64,000 nt of DNA, from positions 62,001 to 126,000 of the forward strand of contig CADCVH010000001.1 of NCBI GenBank assembly GCA_902806085.1, written 5' to 3'. Under the pieces are notes generated by a model. The model was not told the DNA's origin. It did not search any database and was given only the letters and a program-made list of their open reading frames with translations. This document shows, piece by piece, positions 1,071 to 43,935 of the stretch. The position numbers were made by a program, and so were the translations under genes. Source of the stretch: an uncultured Rubrobacteraceae bacterium (GTDB lineage: Bacteria > Actinomycetota > Rubrobacteria > Rubrobacterales > Rubrobacteraceae). Numbering within the stretch: the first letter of the stretch is position 1; every line of letters starts with the position of its first letter.

Positions 1071-1811
1071 ATGGAAGAGCGCAGGATACCGGAGACGCTC
1101 GAAGAGGCCTACGGGCTGCGGGACTCGGCGGGCTCGTTGCAGGAGAGGGACTTCTACCAGGAGCAGGTCTACCTGCTGCGGCGCGAGGAGTACCGTTCGC
1201 GCGGCATCCGCACGGAGATCTCCTCCCGCCGCCGCGAGCGCCAGAGCGCTCTTGAGTTCTCCCGCGAGATGTTCTTCCTCGAGGTCGCTGAGATCTCGGG
1301 CCGCCGCTCCGGGAGCCGCGAGGCCCGCGCCACCCAGCAGGATGCCCGCCGCTACGCCACCCGCCTCGACACCCACGCCTTCCTGAAACAGCTCGCCTCG
1401 CCCCACTCGGGCGCCGTCGAGCTCTACCGGCGCAACTACCTGGAGCTACTGAGGATGGGCAAGTCTCCGGCCGAGGCCTACTACCTCTCGCGGGTCATAG
1501 GGCTCGCGGGCGAGGGGGAGTTCCGCCGGGCCACCGAGAGCGTTCGGGAGTCCGGCTACCCGACCAGGGGGCGGCTCGCCTACACGGTCGAGAAGACGGC
1601 CATCCAGATAAGGGACCTGCCGGGGGGCATGATCCTTATCCTGCTCACCTTCTTCGCCTCGCTCTTCGCCTTCGTGTGGGCGACGCAGACTTGGAGCCAG
1701 GCAGGGGCGGGAACCATCTTCTTCGTCTCTTTGGGCCTGATCGCGGCCAGCGCCCTGATGCTGATCTCGGCCATCTTTATCGTCACCTTTATCAGGTCGA
1801 TAAACAAATAG
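1071..1811 (+). CDS. hypothetical protein with C-terminal two-helix membrane anchor
   Basis: The protein has 246 residues. The first 180 are charged and probably helical, rich in Arg and Glu, with repeated RREEYRSRG-like segments. Two membrane helices follow near residues 185-205 and 215-240, and it ends in a short basic tail. I do not recognise a family. The ATG at 1071 has no clear ribosome site. The last 14 or so codons and the bases after the stop recur at 2433-2483, so this gene's 3' end was the substrate of a duplication or insertion event. Confidence 0.6.
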   Translation: MEERRIPETLEEAYGLRDSAGSLQERDFYQEQVYLLRREEYRSRGIRTEISSRRRERQSALEFSREMFFLEVAEISGRRSGSREARATQQDARRYATRLDTHAFLKQLASPHSGAVELYRRNYLELLRMGKSPAEAYYLSRVIGLAGEGEFRRATESVRESGYPTRGRLAYTVEKTAIQIRDLPGGMILILLTFFASLFAFVWATQTWSQAGAGTIFFVSLGLIAASALMLISAIFIVTFIRSINK

Positions 1812-38064: not shown

Positions 38065-39330
38065 ATGCAAAACGGACAGAGAAACATAACAAGCGCTGAG
38101 ATAGTGACCATCGGGACCGAGATGCTGCTCGGGGATCTCGTGGACACGAACACGGCCTGGATCAGCAACAGGCTCGCCGGCCTCGGGGTGGGCATCTACC
38201 GCCACACCACGGTGGGCGACAACACGGACCGCATCGTCGGCGCCCTCGTGGACGCAGCCTCCCGGGCCGACCTGGTCGTCACGACCGGGGGCCTCGGCCC
38301 GACCTCAGACGACCTGACCAACGCGTGCCTGGGCCTGCTGACGGGCCGCGAGATGGTCGAGTATCCGGAGGCGCGGGCGCACGTGGACGAGAAGTTCGCG
38401 AAGTTTGGCCGCGAGCCGACGCCCTCCAACTACAAGCAGGCGCTCTTTCCCGAAGGGACGGAGCTTATACCGAACCCGCTGGGGACGGCGATGGGGGCGC
38501 TCGTCGAGTGGGAGGGGACGCTCTTCGCGACCCTGCCCGGCGTCCCCTCGGAGATGAAGGGGATGTTCGAGGAGACCATCGCGCCCCTGATACGGGCCCG
38601 CAGCGACGGCTCCATCGTCTCCAAGACCCTGCACTTCGCCGGCATCGGCGAGTCCGCCCTCGCGGAAAGGGTCCAGGAATTCCTCGACGCCGCCGACCCC
38701 ACGGTCGCCCCCCTGGCCGGCCAGGGGCGGGTACGCCTGCGCATAACCACCCGCGCCGCCACCGAAGAAGAGGCGCACCAGAAAATATCCCCCGTGGAGA
38801 GGGAGATCCTGGCCCGCCTCGGCGACTACTTTTTCGGCGAGGACGAGGAGACCCTGGAGAGCTCGGTGGGACGCCTCTTGCGCGAGCGGGGCGCGACCGT
38901 GGCGCTGGCGGAGAGCTGCACGGGGGGCCTGATCTCCAAGCGCCTCACGGACGTCGCCGGCTCCTCCGAGTATTTCGGGGAGGGCTTCGTCACCTACTCG
39001 AACGAATCCAAGGAGCGCCTGCTCGGCGTCCCGATGGAGATGCTCCAGGAGCACGGCGCCGTCTCGGAGCCCGTCGCCCGCGCGATGGCCGAGGGCGCCC
39101 GAAAGCTCGCCGGCGCGGACTACGGGCTCTCGGTCACGGGCGTGGCCGGTCCCGGTGGCGGCACCCGGGAGAAGCCCGTCGGCCTGGTCTTCGTCGGGGT
39201 TGCCGACGCGGAGGGGGCGACCGCGGAGAGGCTCGACCTCACGGCGTGGGCGCGTTCCAGGAACTCCGTCCGGGAGCGCAGCGCCAACCGGGCGCTGGAC
39301 CTGCTGCGGCTGCGGCTGGAAGGGGCCTAG
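38065..39330 (+). CDS. cinA: CinA family protein (ADP-ribose pyrophosphatase/nicotinamide-nucleotide amidase)
   Basis: The protein has 421 residues. The N-terminal molybdopterin-binding-like domain has [12 protein letters not shown], a KG-rich middle part follows, and the C-terminal PncC domain has [25 protein letters not shown] and GVAGPGGGT. It deamidates NMN in pyridine-nucleotide salvage and, in some bacteria, is tied to competence. Full length for a two-domain CinA. ATG 38065 has a -10 box six bases upstream. Confidence 0.94.
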
Positions 39331-39351: not shown

Positions 39352-39380
39352 TTGCCGCGTGTCTATTGTGGTAGTAAAAT
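39352..39380 (+). promoter_or_regulatory. promoter of the structured RNA
   Basis: TTGCCG (39352-39357), a 17-base spacer, TAAAAT (39375-39380). Transcription should start near 39387. Confidence 0.7.
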
Positions 39381-39386
39381 CCCCGC

Positions 39387-39619
39387 TAGTCGAAAGCACG
39401 CGAGAGGAGGTGATCCAGATAGACGCATCGAGCAGTAGTAGCCGCGGGTATCTTCTGGGAGAGGTGGCTCTGACCTAGCCCCACCTAAATCCCATGTGGG
39501 ATCCTGGGTTATCTCTACTCCGCCTCTCTAGTCGTTTAGGCGGACGTGCTAGAAACAAGGATACCCGCGCAAGGCTCAAATGGGTACGGCCCCCGGATCT
39601 CTCCGGGGGCTCGTTTTTT
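39387..39619 (+). ncRNA. candidate structured RNA, about 230 nt, with multi-branch fold
   Basis: CGCGGGTATC (39443-39452) is exactly complementary to GATACCCGCG (39560-39569) and encloses three local hairpins: AGGTGG/CCACCT (39462-39467 with 39481-39486), ATCCC/GGGAT (39489-39493 with 39498-39502) and CCGCCT/AGGCGG (39520-39525 with 39538-39543). Upstream, GGAGGTGATCCA (near 39407-39418) is complementary to the usual 16S rRNA 3' end. A 22-codon ORF from GTG 39411 (ending at the TAG near 39476) lies within. It has its own promoter and terminator; the next gene is on the other strand. Confidence 0.6.
39589..39619 (+). terminator. strong intrinsic terminator of the structured RNA
   Basis: GCCCCCGGA, loop, TCCGGGGGC, CG, then six T. 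Confidence 0.93.
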
Positions 39620-39623
39620 GCCG

Positions 39624-40571
39624 TTATTGGCCCTTAGCTAGCGGCCCTTCTCTTTTCGAACTCGCCGGTTTGCCGCCGATCTCTCCGGTCTCTTCTTCCA
39701 GCGCGGCCCGCAGGTGCAGGGCTACCCACGTCCGGTACGGACGCCATTTCTCGCTTATTTCTCTTAGTTCTTCGACTCCCGGTGTTTCTTCCAGACCGTA
39801 AGCCCTCGCGACGGCGCGTGCCAGGCGCGGCTCTTGCGTCGGCAGGCGGTCCGGTTCGCCGGCGCCGCGGAGCAGGATCAACTCCGCCGAGAAAGGCCCG
39901 ATGCCGGGCAACTCTTGTAGCCGGGACAGGGCCTCTTGGACGGGGAGCGAGCGCAGGAGGTGCGCCTCTATCTTCCCCTCGCCGGCCGCCAGGGCAAGGT
40001 GCCTCAGGCGCTCGACCTTTGTCCCGGACAACCCCGGGAAGCTTTCCAACCCCGCCAGGCATGAGGGACCGGGGAAGGCGTGTTCTGGCCTGCCATCTAC
40101 CGCCACCTTCGACCCCAACTCCTCCGCCATGCGGGCCTTGATCCGGGCCGCCTGCACGATGCGAACGCGGTGGCCGATGATAGCCCAGGCCGCCGCCTCG
40201 TACGGCGAGTGGAAGCACACCGGCCTCAAGCCCGGGTAGCGCCTTTGTAGCTTCCCCACGACCGGATCGCGCCCGGCCACTTCCGGAAAACCGCGCCCGT
40301 CGACGTCGAGGGAGAGTATCCTCGCGACCTGCCGTTCGACGACCCCGACGTCCGCCTCGCCGAAGACCTCCCCGATCACCACCCCGTCTTCTTGGCGCAC
40401 GCCTACCCCGGCGACCCGCTCTTCCCCGGGGCGGCCGTCCGCCACGAAAGCGAGACGGAGCCGGTCGGTGTCGCCACCCTCGTAAGCGGCCGGCGCGAAG
40501 CCTTCGAGGAACCTTACGCTCGATGCGAGCGAGTAGGGCCCCACCGGCTCCGTCTCGAATCGCCTAGCCAT
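39624..40571 (-). CDS. AlkA-like HhH-GPD DNA glycosylase with Glu at the catalytic Asp position
   Basis: The 315-residue protein has an N-terminal beta-rich AlkA domain, then HhH-GPD: SPYEAAAWAIIGHRV and the hairpin LPGIGPFSAELILLRGAG. After it AlkA enzymes have PATDLGL with catalytic Asp; here it is PTQEPRL, so Glu replaces Asp. It should excise alkylated bases if Glu can serve. ATG 40571 overlaps the VOC gene's stop by eight bases, so the two form an operon. Confidence 0.82.
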   Translation of the reverse strand: MARRFETEPVGPYSLASSVRFLEGFAPAAYEGGDTDRLRLAFVADGRPGEERVAGVGVRQEDGVVIGEVFGEADVGVVERQVARILSLDVDGRGFPEVAGRDPVVGKLQRRYPGLRPVCFHSPYEAAAWAIIGHRVRIVQAARIKARMAEELGSKVAVDGRPEHAFPGPSCLAGLESFPGLSGTKVERLRHLALAAGEGKIEAHLLRSLPVQEALSRLQELPGIGPFSAELILLRGAGEPDRLPTQEPRLARAVARAYGLEETPGVEELREISEKWRPYRTWVALHLRAALEEETGEIGGKPASSKREGPLAKGQ

Positions 40572-41449: not shown

Positions 41450-42577
41450 CTACCGCTCCCCGGGCGGCCTCCAGGACCGGCCCGTGGCCCCCACGTACTC
41501 GGACTGTGGCCGGATGAGGCGGTCTTCGGCCTGCTGTTCGAGGCAGTGGGCCGTCCAGCCGGCGACCCGGCCGACGGCGAAGGTGGGGGTGAAGAGGTCC
41601 GTGGGGAGGCCGAGGCCGTGCAGCAGGAGGGCCGTGTAGAACTCGACGTTGGTCTGGAGGTTGCGGCCGGGCCTGTGCTCTTCGAGGAGGCGCAGCGCGG
41701 TCTTCTCTACTTGCAGCGCCAGGTCGTAGAGGTCCCTGTCCCCGTCCGTGGTGAAGAGGCGCTCCGCGGCGGCGGCCAGGACGTCGGCGCGGGGGTCGCG
41801 GACGCGGTAGATCCTGTGCCCAAAGCCCATGAGCCGCTCGCCGCGCCGGAGTCTCTCGCGCAGGACGGGCTCGGCGTTCTCGGCGGCCCCGATCTCGAAG
41901 ACCACGTCCAGCGCGGGACCCGGCGCCCCGCCGTGCAGCGGTCCCTTGAGCGCCCCGATGGCCCCTACTATGGCGGAGACGGGGTCGGAGCGGGTGGCGA
42001 CGATCACGCGCGCCGCGAAGGTCGAGGCGTTCATGCCGTGGTCGGAAACGGTGTTGAGGTAGGTCTCGAGCGCCCGCACGGAGCCCCCGCCTGGCCTCTC
42101 GTCCCGGAGCATGTACAGGTAGTTGGCGGCGTGGCCCAACCCCGGGTCGGGGGCCACGGGCTCTTCGCCCCGAAGCAGCCGGTGGTAGGCGGCCACTATC
42201 GTCGGGGTGCGCGCGACGAGATCGAGCGCCGGGTCTTCGGGGGCGTCGAGGCTCAACGTGTCCGCAGCCACGCGCAGCGCGTCCATCGCCGGGACCTTCC
42301 GCGCGGCGGCCGTCCTCAGGAGGTCCAGGGTGGCCCCTGGCAACTCCCGGCGCTCCGCGAGCGCCCCCCGGAACGCGGCGAGCTCCTCGGCGTCAGGCAA
42401 CCCGTCGCGCCAGAGGAGGTAGACCATCTCCTCGAACGAGGCGTGGCCCGAGATCTCCTCCACCGAGTAACCCGCCAGCGTCAGCACCCCGGCCCCGCCG
42501 TCGACGCCGCTGATCCTCGTCCGCACCGCGACCACGCCCTCCAACCCCGGCGCGAAAGATGCTCCCGAACTACCCAT
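41450..42577 (-). CDS. citrate synthase family protein
   Basis: The 375-residue protein condenses an acyl-CoA with oxaloacetate. Active-site regions: SDHGMNASTFAAR, KGPLHGGAPG (His), GFGHRIYRVRDPRA (His) and NVEFYTALLL. It may be citrate or 2-methylcitrate synthase. ATG 42577 is used because GGAGGTATCGGG precedes it. It ends four bases from the convergent MarR gene and is divergent from the HTH-fused paralogue. Confidence 0.92.
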   Translation of the reverse strand: MGSSGASFAPGLEGVVAVRTRISGVDGGAGVLTLAGYSVEEISGHASFEEMVYLLWRDGLPDAEELAAFRGALAERRELPGATLDLLRTAAARKVPAMDALRVAADTLSLDAPEDPALDLVARTPTIVAAYHRLLRGEEPVAPDPGLGHAANYLYMLRDERPGGGSVRALETYLNTVSDHGMNASTFAARVIVATRSDPVSAIVGAIGALKGPLHGGAPGPALDVVFEIGAAENAEPVLRERLRRGERLMGFGHRIYRVRDPRADVLAAAAERLFTTDGDRDLYDLALQVEKTALRLLEEHRPGRNLQTNVEFYTALLLHGLGLPTDLFTPTFAVGRVAGWTAHCLEQQAEDRLIRPQSEYVGATGRSWRPPGER

Positions 42578-42663
42578 CCCGATACCTCCGATCCCGTACA
42601 AACCCGCCCAACCGGAGCCTCCGCGCTCCCGTGCCCAGCATCCTAGCCCCTCGCAGTTTAGCT

Positions 42664-42691: not shown

Positions 42692-42732
42692 TGTAGGGTG
42701 TCGGTGTTGCTGGCGGATCGGGTGGGAGGGTG

Positions 42733-43935
42733 ATGGGGGAGGGGCGTTATATGACGGCGGGGGAGGCGGCCGGGGAGTTGGGGGTGAGTTTGCCGACGTT
42801 GTACGCCTACGTGAGCCGGGGGATGGTCCGGTCGGAGGCGGCGGAGGGGGGGCGGCGCAGCCGGCGGTACAGGGCCGAGGACGTGCGGGCCCTCCTCGAG
42901 CGCAAGGAGGGCAGGCGGGACCCCCGGCGGGCGGCGGAGGGGGCTCTACGCTGGGGGACGCCGGTGCTGGAGTCCGGCATCACGCTCGTCGACGGGGGGC
43001 GGTTGTTTTACCGGGGGCGCGACGTGGAGGAGTTGGCGGCCGGGAGCAGCATCGAGGAGGTGGCGGTCCTGATCTGGGCGGGGGATCCCGGGGACGCTGG
43101 GGCGATCTTCGCCCGCCCGGAAGCGCCGTCCCGGCGGGCGCGGGGGACGATGGCGACCCTGAAGGGGCTTCCGCCGGTCGAGGCCTTCCAGGCGCTGTTG
43201 CCGGTGGCGGCCGCCGAGGACCCGGCCGGGTACGACCTGCGGCCCGCGGCCGTCGCGCGCACGGGCGCGAAGATCCTGGGCCTCATGGCGGGCGCGGTCG
43301 GCGGCGGGGGGACCGGGCGTGCGGCGGAGACGCTCGCGCGTGGCTGGTGTCAGGGCGAACCGGACGCGGCGGGGCTGATAGACGCCGCGCTCGTCTACTG
43401 CGCGGACCACGAGTTGCCCGTATCGACCTTCGCGGCCCGGTGCGTCGCCTCGGCGCGTGCAACCCCGTATGCCGCCGTGCAGGCGGGCCTCGCGGCGCTC
43501 GGCGGCGTCAAGCACGGGGGGCAGGTGGAGCTCGTCGAGGCCTTTCTTCAAGAGGTTGGAGCGGTGGGGGACGCGCGGGCGGTCGTGGCCGGACGGCTCA
43601 GGCGCGGGGACGTCGTACCGGGGTTCGGGCACCGGCTCTACCCCGAAGGAGACCCGCGCGGGGCGGGCCTGCTGCGGGCTACCGCCGGATCTTACCCGCG
43701 GAGCCCCGCCGTTGCGCTGGCCGAAGCCGCCTGCGAAGCGGTGCTCGAACTCACGGGGGAGAGGCCAACCGTGGACCTGGCGCTCGCGACCGTAGGGCGG
43801 ACTTTGGGCCTGCCGCCCGGCGGCGCCGTCGCCCTCTTCGCGGTCGGCAGGACCGTCGGTTGGATCGGGCACGCCATCGAGCAATACGCCAGCGACGACC
43901 TGGTGCGCCCGAGGGCCCGTTACGTGGGACGCTAG
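42733..43935 (+). CDS. citrate synthase with N-terminal MerR-like DNA-binding domain
   Basis: The protein has 400 residues. About 1-60 is a MerR/excisionase helix-turn-helix: MTAGEAAGELGVSLPTLYAYV and RRYRAEDVRALLE. The rest is a citrate synthase: PVSTFAARCVASARA, GGVKHGGQVE (His), GFGHRLYPEGDPRG (His). Such fusions are known in several phyla but not well studied. It lies divergent to a plain citrate synthase with an operator-like gap between, so it may both sense a substrate and regulate. ATG 42733 follows GGTGGGAGGG. Confidence 0.88.
   Translation: MGEGRYMTAGEAAGELGVSLPTLYAYVSRGMVRSEAAEGGRRSRRYRAEDVRALLERKEGRRDPRRAAEGALRWGTPVLESGITLVDGGRLFYRGRDVEELAAGSSIEEVAVLIWAGDPGDAGAIFARPEAPSRRARGTMATLKGLPPVEAFQALLPVAAAEDPAGYDLRPAAVARTGAKILGLMAGAVGGGGTGRAAETLARGWCQGEPDAAGLIDAALVYCADHELPVSTFAARCVASARATPYAAVQAGLAALGGVKHGGQVELVEAFLQEVGAVGDARAVVAGRLRRGDVVPGFGHRLYPEGDPRGAGLLRATAGSYPRSPAVALAEAACEAVLELTGERPTVDLALATVGRTLGLPPGGAVALFAVGRTVGWIGHAIEQYASDDLVRPRARYVGR

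Follow-up and report, generated by a model that had tools for sequence, protein, structure and literature searches.

In the window, a 64,000-nt stretch of a 4.41 Mb draft genome of an uncultured Rubrobacteraceae bacterium, a predicted structured RNA lies downstream of cinA, which is on the same strand, ends at 39330 and encodes Pfam CinA, MoCF and KH domains. The gene on the 3′ side (39624-40571) is on the opposite strand and convergent, and no co-directional gene follows the RNA in the window. Elsewhere, two neighbouring opposite-strand genes at 41450-42601 (-) and 42730-43935 (+) look like members of the citrate synthase family when their translations are read, and the product of the latter has a putative N-terminal MerR-like DNA-binding stretch. 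A first-pass annotation had placed a promoter, about 230 nt of RNA and a strong terminator at 39352-39619, and all three were recovered (Table 1). The promoter was the sole one found in 1.4 kb, where 0.1 would be expected, and the transcript start was placed ∼7 nt past its -10 box. Homologue promoters have a -35 of TTG[CT], a -10 of TANANT and constant spacing: one promoter pattern fits 27 of the 31 homologues with upstream sequence, with identical spacing in 26 of those 27, and in the remaining four AGTAGTA replaces the G[GA]TAGTA of the pattern. By its sequence signals, the segment at 39352-39619 is a free-standing transcription unit.

Table 1. Predicted features of the Rubrobacter RNA (window coordinates) and of the F2 RNAs (coordinates of their own loci).
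Feature	Position	Strand	Basis or remark
Promoter: -35 TTGCCG, 17-nt spacer, -10 TAAAAT	39352-39380	+	promoter search
Predicted transcript, ∼230 nt	39387-39617	+	inferred from promoter and terminator
PK 5′ strand, AGCACG	39395-39400	+	220/221 cells paired; changes on both sides in two pairs
17-nt segment complementary to the 16S rRNA 3′ tail (extended Shine-Dalgarno)	39402-39418	+	unbroken in 37/37
Putative short ORF, AUA start, 19 codons, UAG stop, IDASSSSSRGYLLGEVALT	39419-39478	+	open in 37/37
P0 5′ strand, CGAGC	39429-39433	+	GAGY:RCUC paired in 37/37
P1 5′ strand, long-range stem	39443-39453	+	11 bp, all pairs kept in 37/37
P2 5′ strand, GGAGAGGUGG	39458-39467	+	96.8% of cells paired; both sides changed in two pairs
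P3 5′ strand, UGACCUAG, holds the stop codon	39471-39478	+	99% of cells paired
P4 apical hairpin	39489-39502	+	folding; CCC...GGG in most homologues
P3 3′ strand, CUGGGUUA	39504-39511	+	P3 covariation tests
P2 3′ strand, CCGCCUCUCU; first six bases also the P5 5′ strand	39520-39529	+	
P5 3′ strand, AGGCGG, alternative to P2	39538-39543	+	216/222 cells paired
PK 3′ strand, CGUGCU	39545-39550	+	same PK covariation test
P1 3′ strand	39559-39569	+	P1 covariation test
P0 3′ strand, GCUCA	39574-39578	+	P0 pairing test
Intrinsic terminator, 10 bp and T-run	39588-39619	+	conserved in homologues
F2 in L163 (same range in L164 and L165)	∼1463-1760	+	
F2 in L168	∼1264-1561	-	

A 271-base search of 61 genomes detected the element in 36 of 37 genomes of its own family and in none of 24 from other families. 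With a covariance model, it was found in 38 of 40 genomes of the class, among them every one of the 22 good-quality genomes. The two without a match are a genome of 60% completeness and one whose element is divided between contigs. In a 397-genome sample of the phylum, the ∼360 genomes outside the class gave no credible match, only weak ones with E values of 0.002 or worse. When a 23-nt pattern of the element was used, almost all of its named matches were Rubrobacter or Rubrobacteraceae, and exact-pattern matches outside the family (L053, L054 and L057) were roughly as numerous as expected by chance; the L054 match, when read, resembles the terminal part of an unrelated coding region. Plasmid and phage records gave no match. 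Rfam likewise returned no match at the gathering score, and across gathering and relaxed thresholds yielded chance-level matches and the 5′ block of the CC2171 model only. The element is a new conserved RNA family, absent from Rfam and apparently universal in Rubrobacteria. Where the locus is long enough to judge, the RNA nearly always follows cinA, while the genes downstream differ between relatives and are mostly convergent. This context agrees with the first-pass view that the RNA, facing a gene on the opposite strand, is not a normal leader, and a leader of the downstream gene was ruled out by the convergent neighbour together with the varied downstream genes. Therefore, given class-wide conservation, cinA on the 5′ side, these varied downstream genes and the conserved promoter and terminator, we regard the RNA as a free-standing unit.

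Near its 5′ end the RNA carries GARAGGAGGUGAUCCAG, complementary to the 3′ tail of 16S rRNA. The core GGAGGTGATCCA (39406-39417) had been recognised as 16S-complementary from the start; the match is confirmed but extends over 17 nt rather than 12. Complementarity of 17 nt holds in all 37 homologues and reaches 18 nt in 20 of them, and the sole variation within the 17 nt is A or G opposite U, at the third position of the block. The tail, CUGGAUCACCUCCUUUCU in relatives, was taken from six relatives in which the 16S end reads ...GGUGCGGCUGGAUCACCUCCUUUCU, the window's own assembly lacking the searched 16S end. No other 16S-tail match in the window is as long (the runner-up has 14 nt), and the whole genome has a single AGGAGGTGATCCAG whose next base is not C. 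The duplex with the 16S tail is predicted at about -32 kcal/mol, compared with -11.6 for an 8-nt Shine-Dalgarno sequence. Constancy across the full tail suggests that pairing with 16S rRNA is under selection, and we are highly confident both that this conserved structured RNA is real and that its 16S match is selected. One explanation would be an untranslated decoy, in which 17 bp with the 16S tail hold or protect the 30S subunit (in hibernation, assembly or tail processing) and the reading frame described below is incidental. In its favour, the complementarity far exceeds the needs of initiation and is preserved at each position through G-U pairing.

The fold was assessed by covariation in 37 distinct homologues, with counts for P1 and PK made on a hand-corrected alignment and compensatory events in P1 counted on the tree. 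Across PK, P1, P2 and P3, 98.0% of cells were paired, against 33-47% with the partner strand slid, and seven pairs had changed on both sides compared with 2.4 in shuffles; none of 500 shuffles reached any of the covariation measures. The folding energy of the single sequence is unremarkable (z -1.75; 10 of 200 shuffles fold equally well), so it is the covariation that supplies the proof of structure. Helix-wise tests were used because an all-pairs search without prior helices, which found no significant pair, had too few variable columns and hence no power. The perfect 10-bp long-range stem of the first-pass annotation (39443-39452 with 39560-39569) is present and lies within P1, the first 11 pairs of which are intact in every homologue, with eight compensatory events on the tree. 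Just outside P1, the four pairs of P0 form in all 37 homologues, one of them as UA, CG and UG types. In place of the three hairpins proposed, the stem encloses a single long arm (P2-P3-P4) and a hairpin that is weak or alternative. The suggested four-way-junction-like fold is incomplete: it misses both the AGCACG:CGUGCU helix (PK) and the CCGCCU:AGGCGG alternative (P5).

The clearest change in PK is in homologue L034, where GCACG:CGUGC has become GCACA:UGUGC. P5 is conserved, yet shows no both-sided changes; its 3′ strand is otherwise unpaired in fold A, and its 5′ strand belongs to CCGCCUCUCU, an invariant core with two possible partners. Because PK crosses P1 and P5 excludes P2, the RNA either forms a pseudoknot or has two folds, A (P0-P3) and B (PK and P5); A and B could coexist as a single pseudoknot, and a switch between them is putative. 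Nested-only model folding gave species averages of 0.55 for P1, 0.47 for P2, 0.54 for P3, 0.37 for P5 and 0.32 for PK. When a ribosome-sized block was placed at the stop codon in the model, P5 rose from 0.37 to 0.87 and PK from 0.32 to 0.63, and P1 fell from 0.55 to 0.22. Two further pairings were rejected by eye: UCCAGA:UCUGGG is disrupted in several homologues, and for sequestration of the Shine-Dalgarno sequence by an internal CCUCUCC the correlation with its variants was unconvincing. A short frame, alternative hairpins and a terminator do give the RNA the look of an attenuator. However, with no co-directional gene next in the window, downstream genes that vary among relatives and helices that covary, an ordinary attenuator or gene leader, or a chance structure, is very unlikely.

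Directly after the 17-nt block, whose pairing goes beyond a canonical Shine-Dalgarno interaction, stands AUA or AUC in every homologue (AUC in L031, L033, L034 and L035; AUA in the others), opening a frame of 18-19 codons that ends in UAG. A 22-codon ORF starting at GUG had been proposed earlier, which is doubtful: L034 has an extra base after CCAG, just 5′ of the start, which puts GUG out of frame and rejects it as a general start, whereas the AUC-to-UAG frame remains intact and contains an in-frame AUG. In Staphylococcus aureus, an extended Shine-Dalgarno sequence with an AUA or AUU start is a design for weak, regulated initiation (PMC13009471). The frame stays open in all 37 homologues, with internal length changes of 3 nt; both observations speak against the decoy, as does the stop-codon U, which pairs in P3 as U-G or U-A and never as C-G. 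In agreement with the decoy, the open frame offers no AUG, GUG or UUG at normal spacing, and a substitution test on the frame was not significant (26 of 64 changes synonymous, 19.9 expected; P = 0.19). The UUG start at the same place in three of four possibly related RNAs (F2, below) also speaks against the decoy, which is a possible but less likely account. We consider the short frame likely to be translated.

Alternatively, the RNA might be a tiny mRNA: its 18-19 amino acid peptide, with GEVALT as the last residues, would carry the function, and the structured remainder would be a tail for stability or regulation. Conservation of the frame and its stop in all 37 homologues fits this idea, as does homologue L023, in which the stop is kept as UAA (TAA) at the cost of one P3 pair. 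On the other hand, structure both within the frame and beyond it shows the same conservation as the frame itself, synonymous changes are not in significant excess and sequence constraint spans all 230 nt rather than the frame alone. We rate the tiny mRNA as less likely than the decoy.

Among the regulatory RNA, ribosome-binding decoy and tiny mRNA put forward initially, the evidence favours an RNA that couples ribosome binding with its fold. The frame takes in the 5′ strands of P0, P1, P2 and P3, all of which belong to fold A, and its UAG falls inside P3; every strand of fold B lies outside it. A ribosome that occupied the frame would therefore disrupt fold A and leave fold B free to form. The capacity to pair with the entire free 16S tail and a tiny frame that overlaps the fold together indicate that the RNA probably senses or captures ribosomes. 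Our main reading, to which we assign a probability of about 45%, is a class-specific, free-standing regulatory RNA that acts on or through the ribosome, its fold switched by 30S docking or translation. The 17-nt segment would dock on the free 16S rRNA 3′ tail of a 30S subunit, and the near-cognate AUA or AUC right after it would be a deliberately weak start. With no ribosome present, the RNA would be mainly in fold A; a 30S subunit or 70S ribosome in the frame would open fold A and favour fold B (AGCACG:CGUGCU and CCGCCU:AGGCGG). Because a very strong dock is combined with a weak start codon, the outcome would depend on initiation capacity, so that the RNA may report or buffer this capacity (free 30S, IF3 and initiator tRNA), acting in trans or as a ribosome sink. 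The unit, its 16S complementarity, its open frame and both helix sets, which covary or are conserved, are present in the homologues; transcription, 30S binding, translation, switching and the output are what we infer. Counting against this reading are the substitution pattern of the frame, which is not significantly coding, the possible coexistence of both folds, the lack of both-sided changes in P5 and the absence of a downstream gene on which the RNA might act in cis.

Several known systems share parts of this organisation. RNAIII of S. aureus, like the Rubrobacter RNA, is structured, stands alone and has a short ORF within it; it is 514 nt long and has known mRNA targets. Of the traits of a dual-function sRNA, the Rubrobacter RNA has the conserved structure, and its putative short ORF is open in 37/37 with P = 0.19 in the substitution test. 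tmRNA is also stand-alone, contacts the ribosome and contains a short reading frame, but the Rubrobacter RNA differs in having no tRNA-like domain; neither ARAGORN nor Rfam gave a tmRNA match in the window, and a separate tmRNA is encoded elsewhere in the genome. With the Rfam model for 6S RNA (RF00013), no match was found in the window or in nine genomes of the class (G000-G008), although three other families of the phylum did yield a 6S RNA. These absences, next to the tmRNA found in the window's genome, would suit a functional stand-in for 6S or another protein-binding housekeeping RNA, with the ribosome segment serving only for turnover. We consider such a stand-in improbable, because there is no single-hairpin rod with a central bubble, the open frame and 16S-complementary segment are unlike 6S, and 6S RNA of this class may be too diverged for detection. 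The S. aureus genes infC (AUA), ccpN (AUA) and cvfC1 (AUU) combine an extended Shine-Dalgarno sequence and an AUA or AUU start with low, regulated initiation (PMC13009471). In contrast to these protein-coding genes, the Rubrobacter RNA has 18-19 codons in a conserved fold and 17-nt complementarity.

The closest likeness in Rfam is CC2171 (RF01867), a Caulobacter small RNA that has the same 17-nt block, GAAAGGAGGUGAUCCAG, near its 5′ end and whose model, like the Rubrobacter RNA, closes with a terminator-like 3′ hairpin. However, its covariance model scores the Rubrobacter RNA at 13 bits against a gathering cut-off of 75 bits; CC2171 belongs to alphaproteobacteria, has no demonstrated structure or flank in common with the Rubrobacter RNA, and its homology to that RNA is unproven. 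In a sub-threshold CC2171 relative from Rhodobacteraceae (L174:1485-1690, -), a short frame with a GUG start (VSRVILERGVRTVRRQTT, then a stop) comes immediately after the 16S block, which suggests that CC2171 may itself resemble a small mRNA.

Another actinobacterial class (families f11 and f42; L163, L164, L165 and L168) yielded a second RNA, F2, in a pattern scan. It contains CACGC followed by AAGGRGGUGAUCCAG (varied in L165), a short frame that starts with UUG in three of four and ends TCEV[PA][DA]R, an ending GAGGUG.CUG.CC..UAG, a conserved GGCGGAATCC region and a terminator. F2 is a second free-standing structured RNA, apparently undescribed to date, and its alignment comprises four sequences; Rfam gave no match to it in L103 and L113, which span the loci of L163 and L168. 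Unlike the Rubrobacter RNA, F2 does not adjoin cinA and the rest of its structure is different. The Rubrobacter covariance model matches only its 5′ block (E ∼0.001 in three, 0.25 in L165), so homology between the two is unproven. On a viral contig (L203:8044-8130; IMGVR_UViG_3300043430_000085), hairpins and an intrinsic terminator come after GAAAGGAGGTGATCCAGAT, all within ∼85 nt; this is a possible small viral 16S-tail-binding RNA.

It is a speculative idea that Rubrobacteria, another actinobacterial class, CC2171-bearing alphaproteobacteria and perhaps a phage have dedicated small RNAs that bind the whole 3′ tail of 16S rRNA and that, through a weak start codon and a switching fold, sense or titrate the capacity of 30S subunits for initiation. 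If true, this would amount to an RNA-based gauge of translation initiation. For the Rubrobacter RNA itself, two helix sets, competing or pseudoknotted, and a conserved near-cognate start lead to testable predictions on sensing of free 30S subunits or IF3. A natural RNA selected to bind the entire anti-Shine-Dalgarno tail would represent an unusual kind of translation control.
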